From a virus, in IMG/VR virus record IMGVR_UViG_3300033146_001994, positions 23,548-87,547 of that record: a stretch of 64,000 nt of DNA. The stretch is one strand, 5' to 3'. The notes below the pieces were generated by a model. That model saw only the letters and a list, made by a program, of their open reading frames with translations, had not been told where the DNA came from and did not search any database. A program made the position numbers and the translations under genes. Below are positions 2,444 to 64,000 of this stretch, in pieces (the first letter of the stretch is position 1; every line of letters begins with the position of its first letter).

Positions 2444-4792
2444 ATGATACAATTTCCATATCAAAAAAGAGCAACATCACAGAAAACATTAAACTTTTGT
2501 ATTGAATGTTTAGAAAGTGCTGAACAGATGCAATCTGAATTATCTATAGCAAATGATAGTGCGGACTTGATAGATAATGAAAATATTCTAAAAGGTAAAT
2601 TAGACCCTGTAAGGCTTGAAAAAATTGTAAATCCTATTGGAATGAAATCTTCTACCTTTAGAGTACCTACCCAATCATATCCATTACTAAAAGATAAAGT
2701 TGACTTATTACAAGGAGAAGAATGGAAAAGAAAATTTGCTTTTTCAGCTAAGTTGTTAAATCCTGATGCTATTAAAGAAAAATATACTGTAAAAAATAAA
2801 TTTATTAAAGATGGATTAATTAGATTAATTACAGATACAGAATTAGATGATGATACTAAAAAGAAAAGAATAGAGAATTTACAAAACTCTATTATAAACT
2901 GGAAGTACATTAAAGAAATTAGAGCAAATAGAATTTTAGAGGCAGAATATGACTTACAAGGGCTAAAATCTCTTTTTAACAAAGGATTTAAAGCCCTGAA
3001 TACTACTAGAACAGAAATATACGCTATTGAGTTAGTAAATGGTAGAATACAAACTAGAGCTGTCAATTGGAAGAATATCAAGGCTGCTAGATTAGGAAGT
3101 TCAGATAGAATTGATGATGCAGATATTATTATAGAAGAAACATATGAATCTCCTGGATGGATTATAGATAGATACTATGATAAATTAAAACCTAGTGAAA
3201 TTACAAGAATTGATAAAGGACTTGTAGCACAATACGGTAATAGTAGAGATTTTTCATATCCAGCTACAGCAGGAGAAGTTACATTTAGTCGTAGTGACTT
3301 TGGAAAAACAGATATAACAACTACAAATAATATACAAAATAGCTTGATAGATACAAATGCCGTAGGCAAATCAAGTATATTAGATTCCTTTGGTAACATT
3401 AGAGTTACCAGACTTGTGTGGAAATCACTTAGAAAAATAGGTATAATTAAATGGATTGAAAACGGTAAAAACCATGAACGTACTGTAGATGAAAATTATA
3501 CAGCTAATAAAGACAAAGGAGAAGAAATAAATTGGTATTGGAAACCTGAATATATGCAGATAACTAGAATAGGGGATGATATATACCCTAGTGATTGGGG
3601 TATAAAAGCTATTCAATTTATGCAAAAAGATAATATTACTTCAGCAGGCAGTGGCTATGTGGGAAATGTTCTAGATGTATGTATTACAGATGTAATGAAG
3701 CCCTTTCAAGTATTATATGATATTATAATGGCTAGGACTAAGCATGCCTTTATAGTTAGTAGAGGTAAAGTTCCTGTTTTAGATTTAGCTAGAAAACCTA
3801 AATCATGGGATGTGGCTAAATGGGATTATTACCTCAATACTATGAATACCCTCTATGAAAACTCTTTTAATGAGGGTGCAGTAGGTGTAGCAAAAGGTAA
3901 AATATCAGGTAATATGCAACAATCCACTAGGGTAATGGATTTAGAAAATGGCGCCTATGTACAACAACATCTTTACATGCTACAATATATTGAAAAGAAA
4001 ATTGGCGATATTGTAGGTATATCTAAAGCTAGAGAGGGGCAATCATCCTCAACTGAAACAGCTACAGGTGTACAGAATGCAGTAACACAGTCTTATCATA
4101 TTACAGAGCCTTACTATGCTATACATGAAGCAATTAAAGATAGAGTATTAAATAATATATTAGAGGGTGTTAAATACTGTATTAAAGTTAACCCTGAATT
4201 ATATGAGAGTTATTTAGGGGATAATGATTTTATTTTAGATGAAATTGATTCTACACAGTTTACAGAAACTTCTTATAACGTTGTAGTTACTTCTAGTGGG
4301 GAAGATTATGAGCTACTTAATCAATATAAACAGTTAGCACATGCAGCTATTCAAAACAATGCTATGAAATTATCCACTCTTGCTACTATATATTCATCTA
4401 AATCAATATTGGAGGTTAGAGAAAAATTGGAAAAAGCTGAACAAGATTTAGAACAGAAAACAGCTCAACAAAACGAAGCTTCTGAAAAGATGAAAAATCA
4501 AATGATTCAATTAGAGTTAAAAGATAAACAAGATGATAGGGAATCTAAAGAACATATCAGTAATGAGAAAAATAAAATGCTTCTCCTTACAAAATTAATG
4601 GAGATTCAACGAGGAGAAAATGGAGATGAAATCTCAACAGAAGAAATGTTTCATAAAATGGAACAGAACTATTCTGAATTTTCAGCGCTTATTGAGCAAA
4701 GAGAAATAGAAAATAAAAGGGCTGAAAAAGAACAAGCATTAAAAGAGGAACAGTTGAAACAGCATCAAAATGCTTCACAGCAACAGAAATAG
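2444..4792 (+). CDS. Portal protein
   Basis: A 782-residue protein directly after TerL and two genes before the capsid gene, the usual place and size for a crAss-like portal. Portals form a dodecameric ring at one capsid vertex, dock the terminase and conduct DNA. The protein is mixed alpha/beta in character, with a central aromatic-rich region (WYWKPEY near residue 363) and a C-terminal tail of roughly 150 residues that is highly charged, Gln/Glu/Lys-rich and probably coiled coil, ending in Gln-rich sequence. The ATG at 2444 follows an A-rich leader with no Shine-Dalgarno, as expected for Bacteroidota. The call combines gene order, length and composition; no single catalytic motif exists for portals. 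Confidence 0.8.
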   Translation: MIQFPYQKRATSQKTLNFCIECLESAEQMQSELSIANDSADLIDNENILKGKLDPVRLEKIVNPIGMKSSTFRVPTQSYPLLKDKVDLLQGEEWKRKFAFSAKLLNPDAIKEKYTVKNKFIKDGLIRLITDTELDDDTKKKRIENLQNSIINWKYIKEIRANRILEAEYDLQGLKSLFNKGFKALNTTRTEIYAIELVNGRIQTRAVNWKNIKAARLGSSDRIDDADIIIEETYESPGWIIDRYYDKLKPSEITRIDKGLVAQYGNSRDFSYPATAGEVTFSRSDFGKTDITTTNNIQNSLIDTNAVGKSSILDSFGNIRVTRLVWKSLRKIGIIKWIENGKNHERTVDENYTANKDKGEEINWYWKPEYMQITRIGDDIYPSDWGIKAIQFMQKDNITSAGSGYVGNVLDVCITDVMKPFQVLYDIIMARTKHAFIVSRGKVPVLDLARKPKSWDVAKWDYYLNTMNTLYENSFNEGAVGVAKGKISGNMQQSTRVMDLENGAYVQQHLYMLQYIEKKIGDIVGISKAREGQSSSTETATGVQNAVTQSYHITEPYYAIHEAIKDRVLNNILEGVKYCIKVNPELYESYLGDNDFILDEIDSTQFTETSYNVVVTSSGEDYELLNQYKQLAHAAIQNNAMKLSTLATIYSSKSILEVREKLEKAEQDLEQKTAQQNEASEKMKNQMIQLELKDKQDDRESKEHISNEKNKMLLLTKLMEIQRGENGDEISTEEMFHKMEQNYSEFSALIEQREIENKRAEKEQALKEEQLKQHQNASQQQK

Positions 4793-4837
4793 TGTTAATG
4801 TAATATGGTATAGATAGTTAAAACTTATCTGTCTCAA

Positions 4838-4869
4838 TTTGATAGGAAAATAAATTAATTGTATAATTG
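4838..4869 (+). promoter_or_regulatory. Bacteroidota-type promoter (-33 TTTG / -7 TATAATTG)
   Basis: TTTG at 4838-4841 is separated by 20 bases from TATAATTG at 4862-4869, which matches the TAnnTTTG -7 consensus with one mismatch. Both spacing and motifs fit the Bacteroides sigma factor. It lies in the 74-base gap between portal and scaffold-like genes and just before the ATG at 4885, giving a very short leader. It could raise expression of scaffold and capsid over packaging genes. Confidence 0.5.
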
Positions 4870-4884
4870 TTAAAACAAAAACTT

Positions 4885-6072
4885 ATGAACACAGAAGAAT
4901 TGTTTGATGGCATTGGAGGTTTAGATTTAGAAGATGATTCTATAGAACTAAATGCTGATGGTGTACCTGTAGATAATATTACGGCAAGTACGCAAATACC
5001 TGAAAGTGCAGAAACACCTACAGGAGATAACCAAGGCAAACCTGAGGATGATGAAGATGATGGACTTATTGACATTGAAGATTCATTGCTTAAAGACCTT
5101 AATGGCGCAGATTCTACAGAGGATAGTACAAATAAGTCTGTAAATACAGATGTAGATGCATATCTTAATTTTTTGGATAATCTAGTAGATTCTAAAGTTC
5201 TTAAAGAATATGATAAAGACGCTTTTCTAAAAGAAGTTGAGGGAGGTAAAAATCCTACAGAACTTATAGTAGCCTTACAGAAAGAAGAATTAGAAGCTGC
5301 TAAAAAAGAGTATTTTGATGGACTATCTGATGAAGATAAGGAAGTGTATAAAGGGAAAACGTCGGGAGTGCAATTAGATGAACTTGGAAATGTTAATAAT
5401 GCATTGGAGTATTATAAAGATATTACAGATGAATTTATAGAGGATGTGAAAAATGAAGATACCCTTAAACAAATCATTTCAATTGATTTAAAAAATAGAG
5501 GATTCTCCGACGATGAAGTTGCGGAACAGCTTGATATATATGAAGAAAAAGACTTAATTACAACTAAAGCTAAAAGTGCTAAAGAGAAAATAGTAAGTAC
5601 TTTAGAAGCAACTAAAGTAAGTCTATTTGAAAAAGCAGAGGCTGCTAAACAGTCTGATTTAGAAAAAATCAGTTCTTATAAAAAAGAATTAAAATCTACA
5701 ATTGAAACAATAGATACAATAATTCCAGGAATCAAAATTGATAGTAAAATGCAAGAACAACTCTATAAGGATTTTACTGAGCCTGTAGAGTATGGAAAAG
5801 ACAAGTCTCCTATAGATGTTATATCCAAAGTTAGAAATATAAATCCTAAAATGTTTGATATTGCATTAAGATATTATAATAGAATAGGTTTATTTAATTT
5901 TGATGATAAAGGTAAATTTGCACCTGACTTTTCTGAAATTAATAAGAACTTACAAACAAAAGAAGCTAGACGTATAAAAGCAATTATTAGTACTGATTCT
6001 TTTTCTAAGAAAGAAAATTCTAAAAATACTCAAATACCTAATAATACAGGATTATTTGATGGAATAGATTAA
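4885..6072 (+). CDS. Acidic, coiled-coil head protein, probable scaffold
   Basis: A protein of 395 residues between portal and major capsid protein, the normal position of a scaffolding or head-maturation protein. The N-terminal third is very acidic (clusters such as EDDEDDGLIDIED); the middle is Lys/Glu-rich and predicted helical (about residues 120-290). No Ser-His-Asp protease pattern was recognised, so a scaffold role is preferred over a protease. A longer reading from a TTG at 4867 is possible, but that triplet lies inside the promoter -7 element, so the ATG at 4885 is chosen. The function is inferred from position and composition only. Confidence 0.55.
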   Translation: MNTEELFDGIGGLDLEDDSIELNADGVPVDNITASTQIPESAETPTGDNQGKPEDDEDDGLIDIEDSLLKDLNGADSTEDSTNKSVNTDVDAYLNFLDNLVDSKVLKEYDKDAFLKEVEGGKNPTELIVALQKEELEAAKKEYFDGLSDEDKEVYKGKTSGVQLDELGNVNNALEYYKDITDEFIEDVKNEDTLKQIISIDLKNRGFSDDEVAEQLDIYEEKDLITTKAKSAKEKIVSTLEATKVSLFEKAEAAKQSDLEKISSYKKELKSTIETIDTIIPGIKIDSKMQEQLYKDFTEPVEYGKDKSPIDVISKVRNINPKMFDIALRYYNRIGLFNFDDKGKFAPDFSEINKNLQTKEARRIKAIISTDSFSKKENSKNTQIPNNTGLFDGID

Positions 6073-6089
6073 ATCTTAATTATATAAAT

Positions 6090-7559
6090 ATGAAACTAAG
6101 ACCTTTTCAAATTACAACACCTAGGGACATATCAGGGCTAGTTAAAACTGAAAATTTAGCTTATAACTTTGGTATAGTGCCTCAAAAAGCATCTAAAGTT
6201 GCACTTAAATTGCGTAGTGCAAATGTTGGTGATGACTTAAATGCCTATTTATCAAAATTTCCTGTAAAGAAATTTGAAACACAAGATGACTTTACTTGGG
6301 ATATTGAAGCTGATGGAGATAAAAACATTCCATTGACAAAATGTTCATTAACTCCTTTAGGAAGTCAGGTACTACCTACTGACAAAGTTGGTGAGGGAAT
6401 AACTCCTTTTTATCTATTCTTTCCTGAAAATTGGTTTTTTGAAACCAATGTAATAGTTGGAGAAGCTTTAGAAGATTATCAAATTAGAATTTTAGAACCT
6501 GGACAGGCTGTAGCAGGAGGGTTAACTAGATATAAGTGTGAACTTGTAACTGGAGATGTCAATTTATTTATTCCTTTTGAAGAAGTAATGGCAGGTAAAA
6601 GATTCTCTAAAGACTTTTCTTTAGTAGAACAAGAACTTTCTGTAGATGGAGGTGGATTACACCACAGTTTTCCATATACTATGAAAGGTGCTTTCAGTAT
6701 GATTAGAATGAAAACTGTTGTTCCTGGCAGTATGGTTAATAAATCTCGCCCTGTACAATTCTTTTGGAAAGATTCTAAAACAGGTAAAACTATAAGTTCA
6801 TGGTTAGACAAGCTAACATATGACTTTGATATGCAGTTTCTTAAAGAGATTAATTATCTTACCCAATATGCACGCTCAAATGAAGCTCCTGATGGTACTT
6901 ATAAAAACAGAGGTACTTCTGGGAATATTATTAAGCAAGGTGATGGAATTAAAGCTCAAACACGTAAGTCTAACTATAGTACTTATAATGAATTTGATGT
7001 TAAAATTCTAAGTGACCATGTTTTAGCAATGTCTGTTGGTAAATATAAAATGGGTGAACGTGATGTTCTTTTAAACAGCGGTGAGTGGGGTCATAAACAA
7101 TTCCATGAATCTGTAGAGAATGTTCCTGGAGCTACATTTGTAGCATCAAGAGATACCCATAGAATCTATACCAATAAAGATGGTAATATGGGTTGGAGAG
7201 GACAATTTACTGAGTATTATGGTGCTAATGGAGTTAAGCTTACTAGTATTCCTGATATGACTAAGGATGACCCTGTTAGAAATAAAAGAAACCATCCTAC
7301 TGAACAAGGACTTATTGAATCAAGAAACTATGATATTTATAATATGGGTACTTCATCAGGTGAAAATAACATTCAGAAAGTTCAACTTGCTACTGGAGGA
7401 GAGATTAGAAAATTTAGAGAGGGCTTAAGGTCTCCATTTAGTAAAGGTGAGGGTAGAATGGAAGTAGAAACAGATGGATGGGAAGAACATAGAGCATACA
7501 TTGGTGGTGCAATGGTATTAGACCCTGAAGGAACTGGAGCTTATAATATTAATTTTTAA
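6090..7559 (+). CDS. Major capsid protein
   Basis: The 489-residue length, the position after portal and scaffold-like genes, and the sequence style match crAss-like major capsid proteins with the HK97 fold. Diagnostic stretches include an N-terminal RPFQITTPRDISGL and a downstream DIEADGDKNIPL segment, which resemble the N-arm and E-loop regions of this family. The C-terminal part has the Gly/Asn-rich, Tyr-rich composition seen in these capsids (SRNYDIYNMG, YIGGAMVLDPEG). It forms the icosahedral shell. The leader is A/T-rich with no Shine-Dalgarno. I recognise the family from the sequence; no alignment could be run. Confidence 0.88.
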   Translation: MKLRPFQITTPRDISGLVKTENLAYNFGIVPQKASKVALKLRSANVGDDLNAYLSKFPVKKFETQDDFTWDIEADGDKNIPLTKCSLTPLGSQVLPTDKVGEGITPFYLFFPENWFFETNVIVGEALEDYQIRILEPGQAVAGGLTRYKCELVTGDVNLFIPFEEVMAGKRFSKDFSLVEQELSVDGGGLHHSFPYTMKGAFSMIRMKTVVPGSMVNKSRPVQFFWKDSKTGKTISSWLDKLTYDFDMQFLKEINYLTQYARSNEAPDGTYKNRGTSGNIIKQGDGIKAQTRKSNYSTYNEFDVKILSDHVLAMSVGKYKMGERDVLLNSGEWGHKQFHESVENVPGATFVASRDTHRIYTNKDGNMGWRGQFTEYYGANGVKLTSIPDMTKDDPVRNKRNHPTEQGLIESRNYDIYNMGTSSGENNIQKVQLATGGEIRKFREGLRSPFSKGEGRMEVETDGWEEHRAYIGGAMVLDPEGTGAYNINF

Positions 7560-48513: not shown

Positions 48514-48939
48514 TTACCTGTTTTCAAATACTGTAACTATATCAATTCCCTCTAGCATTAAAATAATATCTGCGTGTAAAGAATTTTCTAAAGGTTTCTC
48601 TATGAATATATAATATTTTAATAGTAAGTTATTAGATAAAATAGGAATTGCTTCAAATTTATAGGTTTTTCCTGCATCTTCTCTATTTTTTAATTTAAAA
48701 GAGATAACTCTAAACTCATCATCTACATAACTTGCCATTATCAAGGTATCATTAGTTGTATTTAAGTAAAACTTAGCAAGTCCTAGTTTATAAGTATGTG
48801 TTTTCTCTGTTTTAATATTGTAGTCATAAATAGAGTAGGATACATATAAACGTGCTGGCAAAAGGTGTGATTGTGCTGTTACGCTTAATGCCAATCCTAG
48901 TAAAATTATTAATATAAAATTTTTCATAATATTATTCAT
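48514..48939 (-). CDS. Small secreted/periplasmic protein downstream of groEL, 141 aa
   Basis: The N-terminus has a clear Sec signal peptide (KNFILIILLGLALSVTAQS, likely cleavage after VTA). There is no lipobox cysteine. The mature part is beta-rich (LYVSYSIYDYNIKTEK, YVDDEFRVISFKLKN) and small, suggesting a periplasmic or surface beta-sandwich. It overlaps the groEL stop by eight bases and is co-transcribed with it. A host-modifying (moron-type) role is possible. It could be read from either of two nearby ATG codons; the first is given. Confidence 0.6.
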   Translation of the reverse strand: MNNIMKNFILIILLGLALSVTAQSHLLPARLYVSYSIYDYNIKTEKTHTYKLGLAKFYLNTTNDTLIMASYVDDEFRVISFKLKNREDAGKTYKFEAIPILSNNLLLKYYIFIEKPLENSLHADIILMLEGIDIVTVFENR

Positions 48940-52725: not shown

Positions 52726-53676
52726 ATGAAAAGATATATTGTAGAAGTAGACGAAGACAGAACATGTTGGTATCTAGATGATAAATTACATAGAGAGGAT
52801 GACAAACCTGCTATTGAATCTGCAGATGGCAGTAAAGAATGGTACATTAATGGAAAACATCATAGAGAAGATGACAAACCTGCTATTGAATATTCAGATG
52901 GTAGTAAATATTGGTACATCAATAATAAACGCCATAGAGAAGATGATAAACCTGCAATAATTGATGTAAATGGGGATAGATATTGGTATCTAGATGGTAA
53001 ATTACATAGAGAAAACGATAAACCTGCTGTAATTTATACAAATGGTAAAAAAGAGTGGTATATCAATGGAAAACGTCATAGAGATAATGACAAACCTGCT
53101 ATTATAAATGAAGATGGCAGTAAAGAATGGTACAAAGATGGTAAATATAATAGGGAAGATGATAAACCTACAATTGAATACACTAACGGGGAAAAACGTT
53201 GGACTATGAATAATGAACTAGGAAGACAGAATAACAAACCTGCTATTGAATACCCAAATGGTAGTAAAGAATGGTACGTTAATGGTAAATTACATAGAGA
53301 CAACGATAAACCTGCTATTGAATATGCAGATGGAACAAAAGAATGGTATATTAATGGAAAATTACATAGAGACAATGATAAACCAGCTGCTGAATACTCA
53401 GACGGCAGTAAAGAATGGCATCTTAACGGCAAACTTCATAGAGATAATGACAAACCCGCTATTATAGATGAAGATGGTAGTAAAGATTGGTATGTAAATG
53501 GCAAACATCATAGAGAAAATGGTGCTGCCACAATTCACGCCAATGGCGATAAATTTTGGTTCCTCAATGGTATTGAATATTCTGAAAAAGAATTCAATAA
53601 AAAAGTAAATACTAAAAAACTTACTATTGCAGAAATAGAAGCAGTACTTGGCTATTCAATTAAAATAGTTAGGTAA
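52726..53676 (+). CDS. MORN-like repeat protein with eleven ~24-residue repeats
   Basis: A 316-residue protein made almost entirely of tandem repeats of about 24 residues with the core WYINGKLHREDDKPAI followed by a D/N-G turn. Eleven copies can be counted between residues ~14 and ~285, followed by a unique C-terminal helix (KLTIAEIEAVLGY). The pattern resembles MORN/YwqK-type beta-hairpin repeats found in bacterial and phage proteins, often linked to binding roles. One copy (near residue 160) is diverged, and the last lacks the Asp-Lys-Pro core. It is a single-gene unit between two terminators. Function unknown. Confidence 0.65.
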   Translation: MKRYIVEVDEDRTCWYLDDKLHREDDKPAIESADGSKEWYINGKHHREDDKPAIEYSDGSKYWYINNKRHREDDKPAIIDVNGDRYWYLDGKLHRENDKPAVIYTNGKKEWYINGKRHRDNDKPAIINEDGSKEWYKDGKYNREDDKPTIEYTNGEKRWTMNNELGRQNNKPAIEYPNGSKEWYVNGKLHRDNDKPAIEYADGTKEWYINGKLHRDNDKPAAEYSDGSKEWHLNGKLHRDNDKPAIIDEDGSKDWYVNGKHHRENGAATIHANGDKFWFLNGIEYSEKEFNKKVNTKKLTIAEIEAVLGYSIKIVR

Positions 53677-56920: not shown

Positions 56921-57011
56921 TTCAGACAGATAAATGGAAGTTGTGGCTTAGTGGTGCAAATACACTATAACCTATAGTAGCTACTTCAGGTTCAACCCCT
57001 TTCTGTCTGGA
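56921..57011 (+). ncRNA. tRNA-like stem structure (degenerate or atypical tRNA)
   Basis: A 10-bp outer stem (56921-56930 with 57002-57011, one G-T pair) encloses a T-arm-like GGTTCAACCCC placed exactly next to the 3' acceptor strand, a D-loop-like TTAGTGGTGCA and a central hairpin (ACTATA/TATAGT at 56964-56978). However, the T stem has only three good pairs, the interior is about 15 bases too long, and no anticodon loop with U33 is found. It may be a decayed tRNA, an unusual class II tRNA or a tRNA-derived attachment site. Confidence 0.4.
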
Positions 57012-57048
57012 CTTATGTTTAATAAAATAGTAATTTAACTTTAAAATC

Positions 57049-57399: not shown

Positions 57400-57425
57400 T
57401 ATTACTAATAGCTCTGATAAGATAT
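57400..57425 (+). repeat. Cassette-type junction of the second family (half-site)
   Basis: CTCTGATAAGATATGTTGC, just after the zinc-ribbon gene, is nearly the same as the sequence following the gene at 60471 (TTCTGATAAGATACGTTGC). It is followed in both cases by a short AT-rich leader and an AATATGAAATAC-like start. No 3' GTTRNNN core is found before the next gene. Confidence 0.4.
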
Positions 57426-57472
57426 GTTGCGACCATTGAAAACTAAATTATCAATATTGTAAAATCATAAAT

Positions 57473-57661
57473 ATGAAATACACAATAGAACAGAAAAAAC
57501 CACATAAAGACCAAATAATAGTTTTTAAAGCAAATCACGGTACATTCCCTGAGATTGGCATATGGTCTGATTTTGAAGATAACCTAAGTGAGGTTTATAT
57601 ACCTGCAAATGATGATGTGGAATTAGTTAAAAACATTGAATGGTGGATGCCAATAGAATAG
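57473..57661 (+). CDS. Small cassette-type protein, 62 aa
   Basis: A soluble protein with a Trp-rich C-terminus (IEWWMPIE), resembling the short DUF551-like proteins of phages and mobile elements. It starts with ATGAAATAC in the same context as the KH-domain gene at 60535. Followed by an attC-like site. Function unknown. Confidence 0.5.
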   Translation: MKYTIEQKKPHKDQIIVFKANHGTFPEIGIWSDFEDNLSEVYIPANDDVELVKNIEWWMPIE

Positions 57662-57668
57662 TATTATT

Positions 57669-58000
57669 GGTGTATGAACAATAGCCGATAAAAAACACAA
57701 CATTGCGATTACATATAAAGATTATTAACCAAATAATAGCTTAACATAAAGCACCTTAGCAGGCTATTATTTTTATTTATTGTTAGGGTGCATTATTTTA
57801 TGTTACAAACTTTAATTGATATATGTTTTGGAATAATAGGTATAGTAATAATAATACTATTTACAATATTATATCAAAATATTACAGGAGAAAATGCTGA
57901 ATTTGCAATGTGGATAGTTAATGTTATGATTAGCATTATTGTGGTGCTAAGACAATTTAAACGAAATGCACCCTAACGGTGTGGATATGGGCTGATTGCC
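57669..58000 (+). mobile_element. Gene cassette 1 with its 5' and 3' attC-like sites
   Basis: The 5' site runs from about 57669 to 57788. ACAATAGCC (57678-57686) pairs with GGCTATTAT (57762-57770), and the site ends in GTTAGGG (57782-57788); its R''-like end is degenerate. The cassette begins TTAGGGTGCATT and its tail at 57965-57977 is AATGCACCCTAAC, the exact reverse complement of GTTAGGGTGCATT (13 of 13). The tail continues ACGGTGTGGATATGGGC, the array's 5'-half consensus, but no 3' half is found before the next gene. Confidence 0.65.
57800..57976 (+). CDS. Cassette gene: small membrane protein, 58 aa
   Basis: Two hydrophobic segments (LIDICFGIIGIVIIILFTILY and AMWIVNVMISIIVVL) with a basic end (RQFKRNAP). 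The ATG at 57800 is preferred; a GTG at 57788 would overlap the recombination core. The stop codon TAA (57974-57976) is part of the CCCTAAC box of the attC-like site, as often seen in integron cassettes. Function unknown. Confidence 0.5.
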   Translation: MLQTLIDICFGIIGIVIIILFTILYQNITGENAEFAMWIVNVMISIIVVLRQFKRNAP

Positions 58001-58036
58001 CTTGAAATTTAGTAAATAACTTAAAATTGAAATGCA

Positions 58037-58423
58037 GTGGAAAATAATAAAGAGAATGTAAATAAAAAGAACGGCAATTTGCCTATATTTAGTATTAGTG
58101 GCAGTTTTTTGCTACGAATAGCACTAAGCCCATTTTTATTTCTATGGGGAGTTTTTATGTTAATGGTGGGAACATTATTTCCACTACCTTTATTGGTTAT
58201 ATTTAGCACGATGGGGCTTATAGTAACACCATTTGTTTGGTTATTGCGAAAAAGTGGTACAGACATAAAATACCCTGAACCATTTATGGCAAAAGGAGAA
58301 GATTATGGAAATGAAAAAAACATAATGCGTGACCATTTATTTGGAGCAACTATATATGTATGGGGGGCATTTGCAGTAGCATACTACTATGTAAAAACAG
58401 GTGAAGTATTTACTGTAGGTTAA
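58037..58423 (+). CDS. Cassette-region membrane protein, 128 aa
   Basis: The likely start is GTG at 58037, since no ATG lies near in frame. There are at least two transmembrane segments at about residues 25-70 (LSPFLFLWGVFMLMVG, PLLVIFSTMGLIV) and another near 105-120 (IYVWGAFAVAYYY). It is preceded by the shared leader block ATAACTTAAAATTGAAAT. Not recognised. Confidence 0.5.
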   Translation: MENNKENVNKKNGNLPIFSISGSFLLRIALSPFLFLWGVFMLMVGTLFPLPLLVIFSTMGLIVTPFVWLLRKSGTDIKYPEPFMAKGEDYGNEKNIMRDHLFGATIYVWGAFAVAYYYVKTGEVFTVG

Positions 58424-58426
58424 ATT

Positions 58427-58465
58427 GCTATTAATGGCTCTGTTATACATTATTGTAACAAATCA
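58427..58465 (+). repeat. Diverged cassette junction of the second family
   Basis: ATTAATGGCTCTGTTATACATTATTGTAAC follows the stop of the membrane-protein gene after a few bases and aligns with the other second-family junctions by its AATNGCTCTG start. GTTATAC and its partner TTGTAAC could form a short hairpin. No GTTRNNN core follows before the next gene at 58496. Confidence 0.3.
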
Positions 58466-58495
58466 CTATAATATTTAATAAAAAAACAGAATAAA

Positions 58496-58687
58496 ATGGT
58501 AGGAAAATATGTAATCATAGACTTAAGAAGCATAGACCATGTGAAAGACCAAATGGTCTATATGACAGACCAAAACGGCAAAATTATCCTCTGTAACACT
58601 GAGATAGATGCCGCCATAACTTGCGAAATGCTTGGATTTAAAAATGTTTGGATTTGCAAATTGATTTTTAATTATGTAAATATTTGA
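58496..58687 (+). CDS. Small cassette-region protein, 63 aa
   Basis: A short alpha/beta protein (KYVIIDLRSIDHVKDQMVYM) with two cysteines. The ATG lies in an A-rich leader. No match recognised. The neighbouring junctions are degenerate, so it is unclear whether it shares a cassette with the next gene. Confidence 0.4.
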   Translation: MVGKYVIIDLRSIDHVKDQMVYMTDQNGKIILCNTEIDAAITCEMLGFKNVWICKLIFNYVNI

Positions 58688-58719
58688 TAAGATGAAAAAA
58701 ATATAATTAATTATAATAT

Positions 58720-58725
58720 AGGAGG
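58720..58725 (+). promoter_or_regulatory. Strong Shine-Dalgarno sequence (AGGAGG)
   Basis: A perfect AGGAGG five bases before the ATG at 58731. Other genes in the window have A-rich leaders without it, so this one stands out as coming from a host that uses Shine-Dalgarno initiation. Confidence 0.7.
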
Positions 58726-58730
58726 ATTTT

Positions 58731-58994
58731 ATGAATAAAAAAGATACTAAAAGACTTGAAAACATAAAGAAAAGATTAGGTGTAACAACAAAAGCAGAAA
58801 ATGTAGTAGTGGAGCATTTATTCAAACGTGACTTAAATAGAAGTATATTACTTGAGAGTTATGGTGATATTAAAGAAAAAGACGGGTGGATTCAAATAAA
58901 TGCAATAACAAATAAACATTCCTATTTATTTAGTATATCAGTAAGTGAACTAGAAAAGGGAGACGAAAGAGAGTTATGGCACAAAATTGATTAA
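58731..58994 (+). CDS. Cassette-region soluble protein, 87 aa
   Basis: A charged protein: an N-terminal basic helix (KKDTKRLENIKKRLGVTTKAE) followed by a beta-type end. The start is fixed by the perfect Shine-Dalgarno. No family recognised. The different initiation signal suggests recent transfer. Confidence 0.5.
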   Translation: MNKKDTKRLENIKKRLGVTTKAENVVVEHLFKRDLNRSILLESYGDIKEKDGWIQINAITNKHSYLFSISVSELEKGDERELWHKID

Positions 58995-59080
58995 TTGATA
59001 TAATGGAATACAGCTATATGTAAGGTTTTGATAAAAAGTCGTTTTAATGTTTTTTATTTATTATTAGCGTTTTGTTTTAT

Positions 59081-59100
59081 TAATAACTTAAAATTGAAAT
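59081..59100 (+). repeat. Shared cassette leader block
   Basis: TAATAACTTAAAATTGAAAT lies directly before the gene at 59103. A copy with 19 identical bases precedes the gene at 58037 (58015-58033), and weaker versions precede the genes at 61419 and 61861. It may supply translation signals to cassette genes. Confidence 0.5.
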
Positions 59101-59102
59101 CA

Positions 59103-59291
59103 ATGAAAGAAATACTAAATACTAATCAAATATTAAAAGCAACAATTTGGTTAAAAGAACATAGAAAACACGTTTATGATATGGTGTGTAATTCAAAAAA
59201 TGAATATCCACCAACAGATAACAAAGATAAGAATAATCCTAATTTATGGAAACCTGAACATTGGAAATGGTTTTTGCATAATGCAGGGTAA
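59103..59291 (+). CDS. Cassette gene: small protein, 62 aa
   Basis: ATG at 59103 after the shared leader block. A helical, basic-aromatic protein ending WKPEHWKWFLHNAG. The stop TAA is inside the GGGTAAC box of the following attC-like site. Function unknown. Confidence 0.5.
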   Translation: MKEILNTNQILKATIWLKEHRKHVYDMVCNSKNEYPPTDNKDKNNPNLWKPEHWKWFLHNAG

Positions 59292-59406
59292 CGGTTTGTA
59301 TATAAAACGGTGCAAAACGAAATGTAATAGAAAACAGAGAATTAAATAATTAAATATAAACTAAATAAAAGACCACAACAGCATTGTTTTATATACTTTG
59401 TTACGT
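59286..59406 (+). mobile_element. attC-like recombination site 2
   Basis: The R'' box is GGGTAAC (59286-59292). GTATATAAAAC (59298-59308) is perfectly complementary to GTTTTATATAC (59386-59396). The R' core is GTTACGT (59400-59406). Total ~121 bases, within the range of integron attC sites. The next cassette starts TTACGTGGCGTT. Confidence 0.75.
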
Positions 59407-59418
59407 GGCGTTAAGAAA

Positions 59419-59733
59419 ATGGGCGATTATATTGATAATGTTGTTATTAGGCTAAAAAGAAAATATAGCAAGGACGAACTTGTGCAAAGTATGCTTAAGG
59501 AGCAAAGCCAACTTGAATTAGAAAATGGTATACTTAAAAGTGAAAAAGATGAATTGGAATATGAACTAAACCAAATAAAAAAAATGGATAGCAAAACCAA
59601 ACGAGATTTTCACCAAACTTTATATGTTAAAAACACTAAGAAAGAATTAAAAGCTTTGCGCGAATTATGCAAGAAACTTAAAAAAGAAAACCAAGAACTT
59701 TGGGGTAAGTTGGCAAAAGCTAATGCCACATAA
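59419..59733 (+). CDS. Cassette gene: coiled-coil protein, 104 aa
   Basis: ATG at 59419 is preferred over upstream codons that overlap the R' core. Almost entirely heptad-like coiled coil (ELVQSMLKEQSQLELENGIL, LKALRELCKKLKKENQELW). Similar short coiled-coil proteins occur in phages. No specific function. Confidence 0.55.
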   Translation: MGDYIDNVVIRLKRKYSKDELVQSMLKEQSQLELENGILKSEKDELEYELNQIKKMDSKTKRDFHQTLYVKNTKKELKALRELCKKLKKENQELWGKLAKANAT

Positions 59734-59737
59734 TAGA

Positions 59738-59859
59738 TGGTAATACGGTGTTGGTGCGAAAATGAAAGCGCTTACTTAAATTAACCACAAAATTAAGAAT
59801 GAAATATGGAAATTAAATATTAACCACATACTCGCACTACATTATATTTTATGTTGTGG
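59738..59859 (+). mobile_element. attC-like recombination site 3
   Basis: The 5' half GGTAATACGGTGTTGGTGCG pairs through GGTGCG with CGCACTAC (59833-59840) in the 3' half. The R' core is GTTGTGG (59853-59859). The stop region just before (GCCACATAA) is also similar to a normal R'' box, suggesting a small insertion between box and stem. ATTAACCACATACTCGC shares the ATTAACC element found in other sites. Confidence 0.6.
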
Positions 59860-59882
59860 TGCGTTTATTTAAAATTATAGCA

Positions 59883-60059
59883 ATGCCAAAAGGAAAACCG
59901 AAAAGTAAATTTGTATTTGATATAGACCCAAAAACAGGGAAAGAAAAGGGTTGTGAATACGAAAATGGAACTTGGTGTGATTTACCTAAATATAAAAGAT
60001 GTGAACATTGTATTAGGCTAAACGACGGAAGTAAGGCTTGTTATGTTACTTCTCTTTAA
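59883..60059 (+). CDS. Cassette gene: Cys-rich small protein, 58 aa
   Basis: A basic N-terminus (PKGKPKSKF) followed by five cysteines (CEYENGTWC, CEHC, C near the end), a likely zinc site. ATG at 59883; a GTG at 59856 overlaps the R' core. Function unknown. Confidence 0.5.
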   Translation: MPKGKPKSKFVFDIDPKTGKEKGCEYENGTWCDLPKYKRCEHCIRLNDGSKACYVTSL

Positions 60060-60063
60060 TGCA

Positions 60064-60195
60064 CCACAACGGTGTGAATATGGCAAGTAGCCAACAATAG
60101 AATGAGAATTTTTAAAATAAATATAATGTTTAACCTTTCGCAAATAGCTCCAAAAAGACCACATAGCAGGCTATTTGCTATATTTTATGTTATGT
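60064..60195 (+). mobile_element. attC-like recombination site 4
   Basis: The R'' box is CCACAAC (60064-60070), followed by GGTGTGAATATGGCAAGTAG. The end of that half (AGTAGCC) and GGCTATTTGC (60169-60178) are complementary. The R' core is GTTATGT (60189-60195). The element AAAGACCACATAGCA before the 3' half is also present in site 2. Confidence 0.75.
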
Positions 60196-60207
60196 GGCGT
60201 TGAAATT

Positions 60208-60471
60208 ATGAAAATAACTAAAATTTATTACAATTTTGTGCAAGTTCAATTTGAAGATGGGGCAGGAGAAGATTACATGATAGCGGAAGTAGGAAAACCA
60301 TTTTTATCTTATAATGGTGGTGATGAATATCAAGACAAAAAAATTATCAATATCACAGAACACAGACCCGCGGGTGAAGGCGATAAATGGTTTTACGATA
60401 TTGAATTAGAAGATGACAAAATTGTTAGAGTGTTTAATATTAATTCAGTATTTTATTCAAATGCCACATAA
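60208..60471 (+). CDS. Cassette gene: small acidic protein, 87 aa
   Basis: ATG at 60208. A beta-rich acidic protein (KIYYNFVQVQFEDGAGEDYMI, KWFYDIELEDDKIVRVFN), probably a small barrel. The stop TAA is inside the CACATAAC box. Not recognised. Confidence 0.5.
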   Translation: MKITKIYYNFVQVQFEDGAGEDYMIAEVGKPFLSYNGGDEYQDKKIINITEHRPAGEGDKWFYDIELEDDKIVRVFNINSVFYSNAT

Positions 60472-60495
60472 CAGTTCTGATAAGATACGTTGCAA
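60465..60495 (+). repeat. Cassette tail box with second-family junction
   Basis: CACATAAC (60465-60472) with its flank is complementary to the cassette start GTTATGTGGCGTT at 60189 (12 of 13 bases). It is followed by AGTTCTGATAAGATACGTTG, almost identical to 57402-57421. No GTTRNNN core precedes the next gene, so the 3' half is missing or of another type. Confidence 0.55.
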
Positions 60496-60534
60496 ATACA
60501 AAGAATTGATTTATAAATTTAATAAGATTTAAAT

Positions 60535-60876
60535 ATGAAATACTTACGTAACAAATTAGCACAATTTAAGCAATGGATTTCATCTATTGTTAAGTTTCGT
60601 TTTTGTAAAATTACAAGTGAAACTCAAAAATCAAAAAGAATTAAATCATTATTTGAAACTTATTTCGATGGATGTTACGGAGTGGATGCACAAGAAACCG
60701 TATCAAATACTTATGCAATGGGAATATGTAAGTTAGAATATAGTGATAGTACAAATATACTTACTGTGCATCTACGTAGACCCGGATTATTAATTGGAAA
60801 ACAAGGCAGAATTATTGAAGAAGTTGAGAAATATTTAAAATGTAAAATCAAAATAATTGAGATAACACATTTTTAA
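60535..60876 (+). CDS. KH-domain RNA-binding protein, 113 aa
   Basis: The C-terminal ~40 residues (TVHLRRPGLLIGKQGRIIEE) carry the GxxG loop (G88-K-Q-G91) of a KH domain, in the arrangement of type II KH folds such as ribosomal protein S3. The N-terminal ~40 residues are basic. It would bind single-stranded RNA or DNA. It lies in the cassette array and is followed by a very good attC-like site. Confidence 0.7.
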   Translation: MKYLRNKLAQFKQWISSIVKFRFCKITSETQKSKRIKSLFETYFDGCYGVDAQETVSNTYAMGICKLEYSDSTNILTVHLRRPGLLIGKQGRIIEEVEKYLKCKIKIIEITHF

Positions 60877-60881
60877 ATGAA

Positions 60882-61011
60882 ACTTAACGGTGTAGCGTAT
60901 GAAATGTAGGCGATTAAAACAACTACTTTTCATATTTGCACCAAACTAAATTAAAAGATGAAACGATTATTAACCGACATACACGCCTATATTTTATACG
61001 CATTGTTAGGC
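60882..61011 (+). mobile_element. attC-like recombination site 5 (best-paired site)
   Basis: The R'' box is ACTTAAC (60882-60888). GCGTATGAAATGTAGGCG (60895-60912) pairs with CGCCTATATTTTATACGC (60984-61001) at 16 of 18 positions. The R' core is GTTAGGC (61005-61011), which fits the integron consensus GTTRRRY exactly. The spacer contains ATTATTAACC, shared with other sites. Confidence 0.85.
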
Positions 61012-61030
61012 GTATGTGCTTTAAATTAAA

Positions 61031-61306
61031 ATGATTATGAATAAGTCAATAGAAATAAAACATTTCAATTTAATAGATTACAATATTCTTTTAAAAGTTG
61101 TCACTGAATATGTAAAGCAATATCAAATAAGTAGAAATAAATTTGAATATGAAAAACATATATTTGACTTAACAGATACCGTATATGGTTTGAAATGTCA
61201 TAAAAATCCTGTTAAGATTTCAATAGATAATCATTGGAAATCGTTTTGGGTTAAAGTAAGAGAAACAAAAACTAAATATAAATTTGATATATGGTATGCT
61301 TCTTAG
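61031..61306 (+). CDS. Cassette gene: small protein, 91 aa
   Basis: ATG at 61031 (a second ATG at 61037 is equally possible). A soluble basic protein rich in Lys, Tyr and Asn (EYVKQYQISRNKFEYEKHIF; DNHWKSFWVKVRET). Lies between two attC-like sites as a single-gene cassette. Not recognised. Confidence 0.5.
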   Translation: MIMNKSIEIKHFNLIDYNILLKVVTEYVKQYQISRNKFEYEKHIFDLTDTVYGLKCHKNPVKISIDNHWKSFWVKVRETKTKYKFDIWYAS

Positions 61307-61313
61307 CATTACG

Positions 61314-61375
61314 ACTAATGGTTAGTATAAGATGCAACGCAGTGACCGTAGGGTGCATTTTATACATTGTTAGCC
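61314..61375 (+). mobile_element. attC-like recombination site 6 (short type)
   Basis: GTATAAGATGCA (61325-61336) pairs with TGCATTTTATAC (61354-61365) with one mismatch. The R'' is ACTAAT and the R' is GTTAGCC (61369-61375). About 62 bases, the size of the shortest integron attC sites. Confidence 0.75.
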
Positions 61376-61418
61376 TTAGTATGGCTTAATTTAGTAATAA
61401 CTTAAATAAATAGAAATA

Positions 61419-61778
61419 ATGAATAGAGAAATAAAATTTAGAGCATGGGATAAGCAAAATAACGCATTTGCTGAATTATATACAAATGTAGATTGTATGA
61501 ATAATTTAGATAATGATAATGTTGCAATTATGCAGTATTCTGGTTTAAAAGACAAAAATAATAAGGAAATATTTGAAGGTGATATTATTAAAATCCCTGA
61601 TGATTATGATACTTACGGAATATTTGCAGGGGAAATATACGAAATATATTTTGCTTATGGTGGATTTAGATTAAAACCTAAAAACTCAAAAAGGCGTGGG
61701 AATTGGCTTGAAGATGAAAAAGAATTAGAAGTGATAGGTAATATTTATGAAAATAAAGACTTATTACCTACTTCTTAA
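61419..61778 (+). CDS. YopX-family phage protein
   Basis: The N-terminus MNREIKFRAWDKQNNAF and the middle motif MQYSGLKDKNNKEIFEGDII are the hallmark of the YopX family, common in phages of many bacteria but without a proven function. The 119-residue length is typical. As a single-gene cassette with an attC-like site on its left and a matching tail on its right, it shows that phage-type genes are carried in this array. Confidence 0.85.
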   Translation: MNREIKFRAWDKQNNAFAELYTNVDCMNNLDNDNVAIMQYSGLKDKNNKEIFEGDIIKIPDDYDTYGIFAGEIYEIYFAYGGFRLKPKNSKRRGNWLEDEKELEVIGNIYENKDLLPTS

Positions 61779-61784
61779 TATTAA

Positions 61785-61815
61785 GGCTAACGGATTATGG
61801 CTATGTATAGTGCCG
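61785..61815 (+). repeat. Cassette tail box (R'' GGCTAAC), 3' half not found
   Basis: TAAGGCTAAC is complementary to the start of the same cassette (GTTAGCCTTA at 61369) over 10 of 10 bases. It is followed by GGATTATGGCTATGTATAG, similar to other 5' halves, but no GTTRNNN core is seen before the next gene at 61861. Confidence 0.55.
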
Positions 61816-61860
61816 GCAAATTGCACGGAACTTTAAATTATTAACTTAAATTAGTGAGCG

Positions 61861-62274
61861 ATGAAAATAATTATAAAACCTGTAAATGATATAGAAAAAA
61901 AAGATTTCCCAAAAAGTGTTGTTTCAATGCAATTAGGAATATCTCTTTTTATATTAGAACAATCTGATATTGAAGAAGTAATTAAGAAATTAAGCAAATA
62001 TAGTGAACGACAAAAAAACACTGACCATTTAGAAAACACCGAACAAAAGGCATTACATATAGATGATATTATGTTGTGTCTTGAATTAAGATTAAATATA
62101 GATACATGGGGGAGTTATAAAAAAGGCGATATAGAAGTATTTTACATAAGAATTTGCGATGAACAAAACGGCTTAGTTAGATATCCAATAGATAAAAGAT
62201 GGGATATTATTAGTTGTAGTTTAGTGAATGCCCCTAACAGTTCTAATGAGAATAGTAACCGAAATATAATATGA
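61861..62274 (+). CDS. Cassette-region protein, 137 aa
   Basis: A soluble protein with a helix-rich first half and an EVFYIRICDEQNGLVRYPIDK segment. The reading frame runs through a CCCTAAC box (62232-62238), so the last ~14 codons may not belong to the original gene. The start is ATG at 61861 after an ATTAACTTAAATT leader. Not recognised. Confidence 0.45.
   Translation: MKIIIKPVNDIEKKDFPKSVVSMQLGISLFILEQSDIEEVIKKLSKYSERQKNTDHLENTEQKALHIDDIMLCLELRLNIDTWGSYKKGDIEVFYIRICDEQNGLVRYPIDKRWDIISCSLVNAPNSSNENSNRNII
62232..62262 (+). repeat. Cassette tail box with second-family junction
   Basis: CCCTAAC (62232-62238) followed by AGTTCTAATGAGAATAGTAACC, related to the second-family sequence at 60473. 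It lies inside the 3' end of the preceding reading frame. Confidence 0.4.
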
Positions 62275-62372
62275 TGGTTTACTGAATATAAAATAAAATA
62301 AATATTGTAAAATAGTATATGATATAAAAATAATGTATATATTTACAGTAAATAATATATAAAAAGTACACC

Positions 62373-62996
62373 ATGAAAACAAATCAAATAATGGTTAGAG
62401 AAGAAAAGCAATTTCTACAACGGACAAAAGATGGTTATTTTAGTGCTACCACACTTTTGAACTATTGGAATACAAATAACCCAAAAAAAAGAAAAGAAAT
62501 GGGTATTTACAAAAGAAATAAAAGTACAAAGGAATTTATTAAACATTTGCAAAAAGAGAATATTGAAAACCCTTACATTTCATCAAATAAGGGAACTTGG
62601 CTTCATCCAAAATTATTTATCGATTTTGCAATGTGGGTTTCTGTTGAGTTTAAAAGTAAGGTTATTGATTATGTCTTGGATGGACTTATATTTAATCGGA
62701 ATGAAGCAGGAGATTATTATAAAGAAATGTGTGCGACTATTATGGATACTCATATTGAATTTTTCGGAACAAAACCAAATCCGAAAATATACAGTGAAGA
62801 AGCTAATAGAATTACAAAAATATTAAAATTACATAAAAAGGATAGAAACCTAATGACCGAAAATGAATTGAATACCATAACTGTATTGCAAAAAACAAAC
62901 GTTTTACTATTGCGAAAAAAGGTAGGGAAAGATGCAAGAATAAAGCAATTAATGCTTCAAGCAGAAATATTAAATATTGACGACCATTCTTTGTAG
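62373..62996 (+). CDS. KilA-N domain protein (phage DNA-binding / antirepressor type)
   Basis: A 207-residue protein whose first ~110 residues fit the KilA-N domain: YFSATTLLNYWN, a basic middle, then GTWLHPKLFIDFAMWVSVEFKSKVIDYVLDG. KilA-N proteins are found in phages and large DNA viruses, where they bind DNA and often act as antirepressors or regulators. The C-terminal ~90 residues are helical and basic and may be a second binding part. It is followed by a weak attC-like site. Its start is preceded by a 98-base AT-rich leader. Confidence 0.8.
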   Translation: MKTNQIMVREEKQFLQRTKDGYFSATTLLNYWNTNNPKKRKEMGIYKRNKSTKEFIKHLQKENIENPYISSNKGTWLHPKLFIDFAMWVSVEFKSKVIDYVLDGLIFNRNEAGDYYKEMCATIMDTHIEFFGTKPNPKIYSEEANRITKILKLHKKDRNLMTENELNTITVLQKTNVLLLRKKVGKDARIKQLMLQAEILNIDDHSL

Positions 62997-63093
62997 CCTT
63001 GAATGGAGAGCTAATAAATTACATAGAATTAAATAGATATTATTAACCACAGATTAAGCAATTAACCGCTATCATTTTTATTTATTGTTAAGG
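62983..63093 (+). mobile_element. attC-like recombination site 7 (weak 5' half)
   Basis: The 3' half is clear: ATTATTAACC, CCGCTATCATTTTTATTTAT and an R' core GTTAAGG (63087-63093), all features shared with site 1. The 5' half (CCTTGAATGG with GAGAGC) is diverged and pairs poorly. Confidence 0.45.
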
Positions 63094-63094
63094 A

Positions 63095-63244
63095 TTGTTT
63101 ACTTATGGAAAAAGAATAAAAAAAAGTAAAAAAAGTATTTCAACAGCACATCATTCAATATTAATTGGAGATGGATTATTTACAGATAAATCTTATCATT
63201 TATTGGTGAATAAGAATGGTGTAAAAATTGACAAAATTGCTTAA
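63095..63244 (+). CDS. Possible very small cassette gene, 49 aa, non-ATG start
   Basis: An open frame from a TTG right after the R' core to a TAA that forms part of the GCTTAAC box. The product would be basic at the start (GKRIKKSKKS) with a beta-type end (HHSILIGDGLFTDKSYHLLV). The alternative ATG nearby gives only four codons. It may be a decayed gene. Confidence 0.3.
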   Translation: MFTYGKRIKKSKKSISTAHHSILIGDGLFTDKSYHLLVNKNGVKIDKIA

Positions 63245-63301
63245 CGTGCCGATTATATGGCACGTATGAGGAACGAATATGGGCTATATAATGTGTTGTG
63301 T
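63239..63301 (+). mobile_element. attC-like recombination site 8 (short type)
   Basis: The R'' is GCTTAAC (63239-63245). GATTATATGGC (63251-63261) pairs with GGCTATATAAT (63282-63292) except for one G-T and the end base. The R' is GTTGTGT (63295-63301). About 63 bases. The 112 bases after it, up to the next gene, hold only a G-rich leader with no gene. Confidence 0.55.
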
Positions 63302-63413
63302 GTCTGTGGGCGGGGATTATAGCACAAAGTTTATTTTGCGAAACAAGAATTAAAAAAGAAAAAAAGGGAAGGCGAAAACTTTATAGAGTAGCCAAATAAA
63401 TAAATTTATAAAA

Positions 63414-63632
63414 ATGGATAATTCATTTTACGAAAGACTTCTAACAGAAGCACAAGAGTTGGCAACAAAAACAAATGCCTTAAATGACTTTATGAGAACG
63501 CAAAAATTCGTTGATTTAGATAGGGTAAACAAAAATTTACTTTACAAGCAATCGAGATTAATGAATGAGTATTTACAAATACTTGGGCAACGAATTGAAT
63601 TGTTTGGCGAGAAGTTTTCTTTTAAGAAGTAG
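63414..63632 (+). CDS. Cassette gene: short helical phage protein, possibly Acb2/Tad1-like
   Basis: A 72-residue helical-hairpin protein with the pattern FYERLLTEAQELATKTNALN, then FVDLDRVNKNLLYKQSRLMN and YLQILGQRIELFG. This resembles the small phage family that includes the Acb2/Tad1 hairpin proteins, which sequester cyclic nucleotide signals of CBASS or Thoeris defence. The resemblance is judged by eye. If correct, an anti-defence gene is carried as a mobile cassette. Confidence 0.5.
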   Translation: MDNSFYERLLTEAQELATKTNALNDFMRTQKFVDLDRVNKNLLYKQSRLMNEYLQILGQRIELFGEKFSFKK

Positions 63633-63670
63633 TGCGGTGGGCTTTTTATTTTTAACCCCAAATAACGCAC

Positions 63671-63721
63671 AAAGTTAGAAACGTGGTACAGTGTTAGCAT
63701 TGGTTATACGCATTGTTAGGC
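63671..63721 (+). mobile_element. attC-like recombination site 9 (3' end clear)
   Basis: Ends in R' GTTAGGC (63715-63721) preceded by TATACGCATT, identical to the end of site 5. The R''-like end is uncertain (ATAACGCACAAAG). The site is short and its pairing is weak. Confidence 0.45.
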
Positions 63722-63796
63722 ACTGTGCCACCTTTAAACAGGAGCAAGTGTTTAGCAATTAACGAATATAATATCATTTTTGGCATTGTGCCTAAC
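63716..63796 (+). mobile_element. ORF-less mini-cassette
   Basis: An 81-base unit starting TTAGGCACTGTGCC and ending GGCATTGTGCCTAAC. Its end is complementary to GTTAGGCACTGTGCC at 13 of 15 positions, the same start-to-tail relation as the gene-bearing cassettes. No reading frame with a plausible start fits inside it. Confidence 0.55.
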
Positions 63797-63921
63797 GGTG
63801 TGAATATATTGTTGGTGCGATTTATAAAACGATTGCCTGACATCAGAAAAACATTAAATGTGAAACGAGAAAATTTAAAATATAGTAATAACCAAGCACT
63901 GCAATATATTTGTTGTTGTGG
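63790..63921 (+). mobile_element. attC-like recombination site 10
   Basis: The R'' is GCCTAAC (63790-63796). GAATATATTGTTGGTGC (63802-63818) pairs with GCACTGCAATATATTT (63896-63911), with one gap. The R' is GTTGTGG (63915-63921), the same core as site 3. The next cassette starts TTGTGGTGCGTTAAATTC. Confidence 0.75.
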
Positions 63922-63941
63922 TGCGTTAAATTCTTAATATT

Positions 63942-64000
63942 ATGAGAAAATTTAATTTAGAAGCGAAAATAACAATTAGTGTTCATACTGTTGTTGATGC
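63942..64000 (+). CDS. Cassette gene, 3'-partial at the window edge
   Basis: ATG at 63942 opens a frame (MRKFNLEAKITISVHTVVDA) that runs off the window. It lies 20 bases after an R' core, the usual distance in this array, so it is probably another cassette gene and the array continues to the right. Confidence 0.55.
   Translation, partial: MRKFNLEAKITISVHTVVD

Follow-up and report, generated by a model that had tools for sequence, protein, structure and literature searches.

A virus record of 87,547 bp, IMG/VR IMGVR_UViG_3300033146_001994, carries in its right-hand 64 kb an array of small gene units in which the first bases of a unit are complementary to its own last bases. The stretch that was analyzed (64,000 nt, record positions 23,548 to 87,547) is referred to as the window, and the array occupies its positions 57400..64000 on the plus strand. 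The locus raises the question of whether the two ends of a unit are halves of one recombination site and, if so, which enzyme acts on it. The array is likely a cluster of attC sites lacking integron integrases (CALIN), that is, a set of integron-like cassettes in a closing phage genome, and the unit ends would be the R arms of an attC hairpin cut by a tyrosine recombinase at G|TT. With moderate confidence, it is further proposed that Flavobacteriaceae have an integron-like system of their own, with an IntI-related recombinase that lacks the IntI domain and with a fixed arm mismatch. Unrelated phages of these hosts would maintain a pool of their own, made up of short cassettes in which the gene is reversed relative to the site, and would trade accessory genes via the host recombinase.

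Cassette ends pair within their own unit

In the first unit (57782..57977), the start GTTAGGGTGCATT has its exact reverse complement at 57965-57977 (AATGCACCCTAAC, 13/13), as claimed in a first-pass annotation of the window. That annotation had set its starts one base too high, where they match only 3-4/13; the true starts are 57782, 59853 and 60189. From the corrected positions, units 59853..60070 (start GTTGTGGTGCGTT, tail 60058-60070) and 60189..60472 (start GTTATGTGGCGTT, tail 60460-60472) each match their own tail at the annotated 12/13, with G at position 11 of the start and T at position 11 of the tail (G11/T11). The pairing annotated for the YopX unit (61369..61791) was likewise recovered, with the first 10 bases paired (10/10), 12/13 overall and G11/T11, as was that of an 82-bp mini-unit without a clear open reading frame (ORF; 63715..63796), here scored 11/13. 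Lower matches were obtained for unit 59400..59734 (10/13, tail AATGCCACATAAT), a short unit at 63087..63245 (10/13) and unit 61005..61319 (8/13). The array also holds units that the annotation did not list, namely a KH-domain unit at 60589..60888 (start GTTAAGTTTCGTT, tail AATGAAACTTAAC, 12/13) and three units starting at window position 63915 and at contig positions 335 and 604. The first of these three has only its start in the window (63915..64000) and its tail at contig position 216; the other two lie past the contig joint. All units in the window are on the plus strand, and the proteins encoded in the array include KilA-N, YopX, KH and crAss001_48-like ones.

The pairing is specific to the unit. 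In a permutation test on seven units, with tails sought only in a fixed interval around each stop codon, starts matched their own tails at 11.0/13 and other tails at 7.8/13, and 2/5040 permutations were as good. Nor is the match limited to the four core bases: it runs through position 10, breaks at 11 and resumes at 12-13, and positions 8-13 alone, past the 7-nt core, show an own-tail excess (p=0.0016). A further element, lying ahead of each start with a sequence complementary to that start, might have formed a pseudoknot. It looked suggestive by eye and reached p=0.066 on nine sites, but was rejected, there being no signal in the larger sets of 39 phage units (p=0.71) and 107 host units (p=0.25).

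Start-tail complementarity alone is already known for integrons and is not new. Self-pairing in most cassettes reaches 9-11 nt, past the 7-nt R boxes (Bouvier et al. 2009, PMC2727003). For comparison, 33 IntI-adjacent cassettes were collected from eight 20-kb regions around IntI genes in the phylum of genome G001, a genome that holds a locus titled Flavobacteriaceae. These cassettes match their own ends at 11.0/13 and other ends at 6.9/13, the matched fraction being 0.9 or more up to position 10, 0.79 at position 11 and at background level from position 12.

Further properties of the array agree with a CALIN. The units are in tandem, their sites have the R''-L''-L'-R' layout with GTT/AAC cores, although several window sites are decayed, the start of a unit pairs with its own tail past the 7-nt box, and the integron integrase (TIGR02249) is absent from the same element. 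An attC of a subfamily common to several other phage contigs (60460..60592, plus strand) supplies the first codons of ORF 60535; the N-terminus of this ORF had been considered as a conserved protein, which was rejected, since the stretch is attC sequence. The notion of half attC sites without L'/R' was also discarded, some of these being full but decayed sites (57985-58101, 60462-60592), as was a first attC detector whose thresholds were too loose.

A fixed mismatch at position 11

The paired ends follow a strict rule, in which 10 base pairs are followed at position 11 by a fixed mismatch between G in the start and T in the tail, and then by 2-3 further pairs. Most window units obey it; the exceptions are the first unit at 57782, which is matched at position 11, and the units at 61005 and 63087. 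G11/T11 was found in 92/92 host units and 27/31 phage units, which were identified without requiring bases at position 11 but within arrays first picked for holding G11/T11 units; the matched fractions are inflated by selection on matching, whereas the counts against control regions given below (18/22 vs 0/20) are free of that bias.

Relatives of the KH cassette led to further phage contigs with the same unit type. These phages differ from one another: G591 encodes portal and head proteins, G586 a family B polymerase and a chaperonin, G585 a tape measure protein and a tyrosine recombinase, and G587 a DNA transfer protein; contig G590 overlaps G591 (99.99% over 9.8 kb). The ends of the KH unit covary in these relatives, with GTTAAGTTTCGTT/AATGAAACTTAAC in the window phage and GTTATGCCTCGTT/AATGAGGCATAAC in L107 and L108. 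For the 82-bp mini-unit, both 15-base ends recur in L119 around a different interior. Units of this type are also present in the isolate Polaribacter phages P12002L and Freya_5. In the phage arrays of G587 and G585 (L123 12296, L124 18447, L119 10016), the sequence AACTATTATATAT directly follows the last tail and is possibly the phage counterpart of attI.

Cassette arrays beside a Flavobacteriaceae recombinase

Searched in bacterial genomes, the exact pattern TTTTATGTTRYGTGGCGTT gave 3 matches, one of them of this type, in a Flavobacteriaceae metagenome-assembled genome; a looser pattern, applied to 300 Flavobacteriaceae genomes, scored close to its control. A search with the site pattern yielded two genomes of the family of G001 with the same units. 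In G135, a nine-unit array ends 48 bp from a tyrosine recombinase gene. Signature units were found in 18/22 recombinase regions (20 around recombinase relatives in other genomes, plus those of G135 and G183), 95 units in total, with all units of a region on one strand. They were absent from 20/20 control regions elsewhere in the same genomes and about zero in shuffled sequences. The array joins the 3' end of the recombinase gene in nearly all loci, the last unit mostly lying about 50-180 bp from it. In 10/12 loci of the closest clade, the recombinase stop codon is followed by a 22-28 bp palindrome and, 3-6 nt later, by the first GTT; palindrome and GTT are a candidate attI. Relatives of the recombinase at E <= 1e-60 were found in 40/70 sampled genomes of Flavobacteriaceae, the family of G001. 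In the draft genomes G343, G312, G336, G333, G300 and G321, several contigs end near the recombinase linked to the arrays, which may mean that arrays disrupt assembly. The recombinase beside the phage array of G585 was not used as proof; it may be an ordinary temperate-phage integrase, with relatives in Ingeline and Freya phages.

In G135, the Flavobacteriaceae recombinase is encoded at C1:2616771-2617892. The enzyme (P0001 family) scores 218.4 bits with its best family model, NF040815 (cut-off 220), and 210.7 bits with TIGR02249 (cut-off 265). Phylogenetically, the family groups with IntI, apart from XerC, XerD and the Xer-like protein of G001 (100/99). The additional domain that defines integron integrases (PMC9668308) is present as an insertion in all IntI rows shown in the alignment and has no equivalent in the array-linked recombinase. 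Many members of the family carry an N-terminal extension of about 105 residues. Judged by the array linkage and the tree, the cognate enzyme is probably this Flavobacteriaceae recombinase, related to IntI but not a classical IntI.

Host and phage genes run in opposite directions relative to the site

With site polarity set by G11/T11, ORFs of at least 55 aa run against the site polarity in host arrays (95/95, 16 arrays) and with it in phage arrays (29/29, six arrays). Isolate phages fit in part: the short ORFs of Freya_5 and most P12002L units have the phage polarity, and one P12002L unit has the host polarity. The unit boundaries can be read from repeats. Locus L170 holds an 849-bp cassette twice, with 100% identity and GTT at both ends, one copy lying 30 bp past the stop codon of the recombinase as the first cassette; in L156 and L157, a unit of about 271 bp is repeated five times with boundaries at AAC/GTT. 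These boundaries fall at the GTT that corresponds to the tail of the first-pass annotation. Because host genes run opposite to its start-to-tail direction and the repeats begin and end at the tail, the attC that belongs to a phage gene would lie upstream of that gene, and L''-loop-L'-start-gene-tail is the most likely layout of the unit that moves in phages. In G000, G585 and G586, a related site has been retained upstream of the KH gene.

The annotation had explained the pairing by a former circle in which start and tail formed one attC hairpin. Start and tail indeed behave as the R arms of one such hairpin, while the polarity that it assumed is probably reversed. A hairpin formed by the cassette ends in a circular unit is supported by the pairing and is the accepted integron model.

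Proposed mechanism and alternative explanations

In the proposed mechanism, a unit would circularize, its start and tail would pair as the R arms of one attC hairpin, and a tyrosine recombinase would cut the hairpin at G|TT. The phage cassettes would be moved as attC followed by gene, with the recombinase supplied by the Flavobacteriaceae host, and phages would exchange small accessory genes through the system.

Several points weigh against this. Recombination and circles are deduced from sequence, and neither was seen. The start of unit 59400 fits its neighbor's tail (11/13) better than its own (10/13), and 2/8 units, 59400 and 61005, fit weakly. Identical phage attC sites also precede different genes, so that in phages the crossover may lie on either side and the upstream-site step stays a deduction. 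The tree supports the grouping of the recombinase family with IntI but no particular order of branching within it, and some of its branches are long. IntI (TIGR02249) was not found in the 87,547-bp record, where other recombinases, including the P0001 family, were not searched for, and the host of the window phage is taken from its relatives. Finally, one P12002L site, which may or may not be among the units described here, is reported to be active with IntI1 (PMC9892861), so that sites of this kind may be substrates of classical IntI as well.

The last point leads to the strongest alternative, an ordinary CALIN whose cassettes stem from classical IntI integrons of Bacteroidota, with the Flavobacteriaceae recombinase as a bystander. 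IntI above its curated cut-off occurs in 84/296 genomes sampled from the phylum of G001, one IntI-bearing genome, G006, contains two units of the present type as well, and phage CALINs with IntI1-active sites have been published (PMC9892861). However, IntI-adjacent arrays lack the fixed mismatch at position 11, and arrays with the signature follow the other recombinase in 18/22 regions. In G006, about 4 kb separate the units from IntI, and the genome additionally encodes a relative of the other recombinase. This explanation is considered unlikely. Far less probable is a role of the pairing in the mRNA, whose ends would pair and thereby protect or regulate the transcript: most leftover phage mismatches are G-T on the plus strand, i.e. 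G-U in RNA, but the pairing is present with the gene sense or antisense to it, holds in the 82-bp unit without an ORF, and breaks off at a constant distance marked by a constant mismatch. Chance, or a consensus common to cassette ends, retains next to no probability: four units do have much consensus in common and unit 59400 fits its neighbor better, but this explanation is refuted by the permutations, the excess past the core, the absence of units from control regions and their near-absence from shuffles.

Relation to known integrons

The proposed Flavobacteriaceae system shares with IntI integron cassettes (PMC2727003, PMC8618304) the tandem small units, the GTT/AAC cores, the R''-L''-loop-L'-R' layout, own-end pairing over more than 7 nt, GTT boundaries and an array beside a tyrosine recombinase. 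It differs in the fixed G/T mismatch at position 11, after which pairing resumes, in a recombinase without the IntI-specific insertion, and in a candidate attI that is a palindrome, with the array meeting the recombinase 3' end. In a classical integron, the recombinase is transcribed away from the array and its start lies beside attI. Here, by contrast, the array lies at the recombinase 3' end in nearly all loci, and the enzyme lacks the IntI-specific domain.

CALINs in virulent phages without IntI, including Polaribacter phage P12002L, have been described (Qi et al. 2023, PMC9892861). The window array is likewise without IntI, and P12002L carries the same unit type. The present array differs in being longer, in its 87-kb closing genome, in a gene polarity opposite to that of host cassettes and in the link to a different recombinase. 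XerA-type recombinases (NF040815) provide the best family model for the Flavobacteriaceae enzyme, which nevertheless scores just under the cut-off, groups with IntI rather than with E. coli XerC/XerD, has an N-terminal extension in many members and is linked to cassette arrays.

IntegronFinder 2.0 reported very few complete integrons in Bacteroidetes (PMC9024848). Against the small numbers published for complete Bacteroidetes genomes, the 84/296 IntI-bearing genomes in the phylum of G001 are a large excess. Arrays of the type described here can be expected to escape a detector that is tuned to IntI and canonical attC sites. In the searched literature, of which coverage is partial, no description of the Flavobacteriaceae system was found. 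The new part is thus the surrounding system: Flavobacteriaceae arrays, a recombinase that is IntI-related but has no extra domain, the fixed mismatch and inverted phage cassettes. If true, a large environmental bacterial family has an overlooked gene-capture system through which phages trade genes. A relative without the extra domain would then be a natural comparison for the origin of IntI and single-stranded attC chemistry from Xer-like enzymes, and the constant mismatch at position 11 amounts to a simple sequence rule, open to searches and tests.

Phage genome and further features

The record is assigned to a phage based on its portal and major head protein genes (2444..7559, plus strand; phrog_6547, phrog_11589). 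Its contig ends (L001) overlap by 63 bp, window positions 63938-64000 repeating contig positions 1-63. The genome thus probably closes on itself at about 87.5 kb, and by this overlap the cassette array crosses the joint and reaches about contig position 818. A 711-aa protein has its nearest isolate relatives in Cellulophaga phages phi17:2 and phi4:1 (48-50%), which led to the rejection of a crAss-like identity raised by one Pfam match. Motif counts in IMG/VR relatives of the window phage reveal no comparable array, and comparison of the array DNA with phage records gave no broad match, and with plasmid records none.

At the left array edge, a stretch at 56930-57012 resembles a tRNA, in which CAGACAG ... 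CTGTCTG would be the acceptor stem and GGTTCAACCCC the T arm; neither ARAGORN nor Rfam made a call there. The motif TAACTTAAA lies closely upstream of four array genes (58017, 59084, 61398 and 61842). These are its only plus-strand copies in the window, with two more on the minus strand, and its role may be that of a cassette promoter or leader.

Outside the array, the window begins with an intein with a LAGLIDADG endonuclease (128-2413). A GroEL-like chaperonin is encoded by the phage on the minus strand (48932-50524); phage G586, which has the same cassette type, also carries a chaperonin, split by a homing-endonuclease region. The protein encoded at 52726-53676 consists of roughly a dozen repeats that follow the pattern GKLHRDNDKPAIEY.DGSKEWY..

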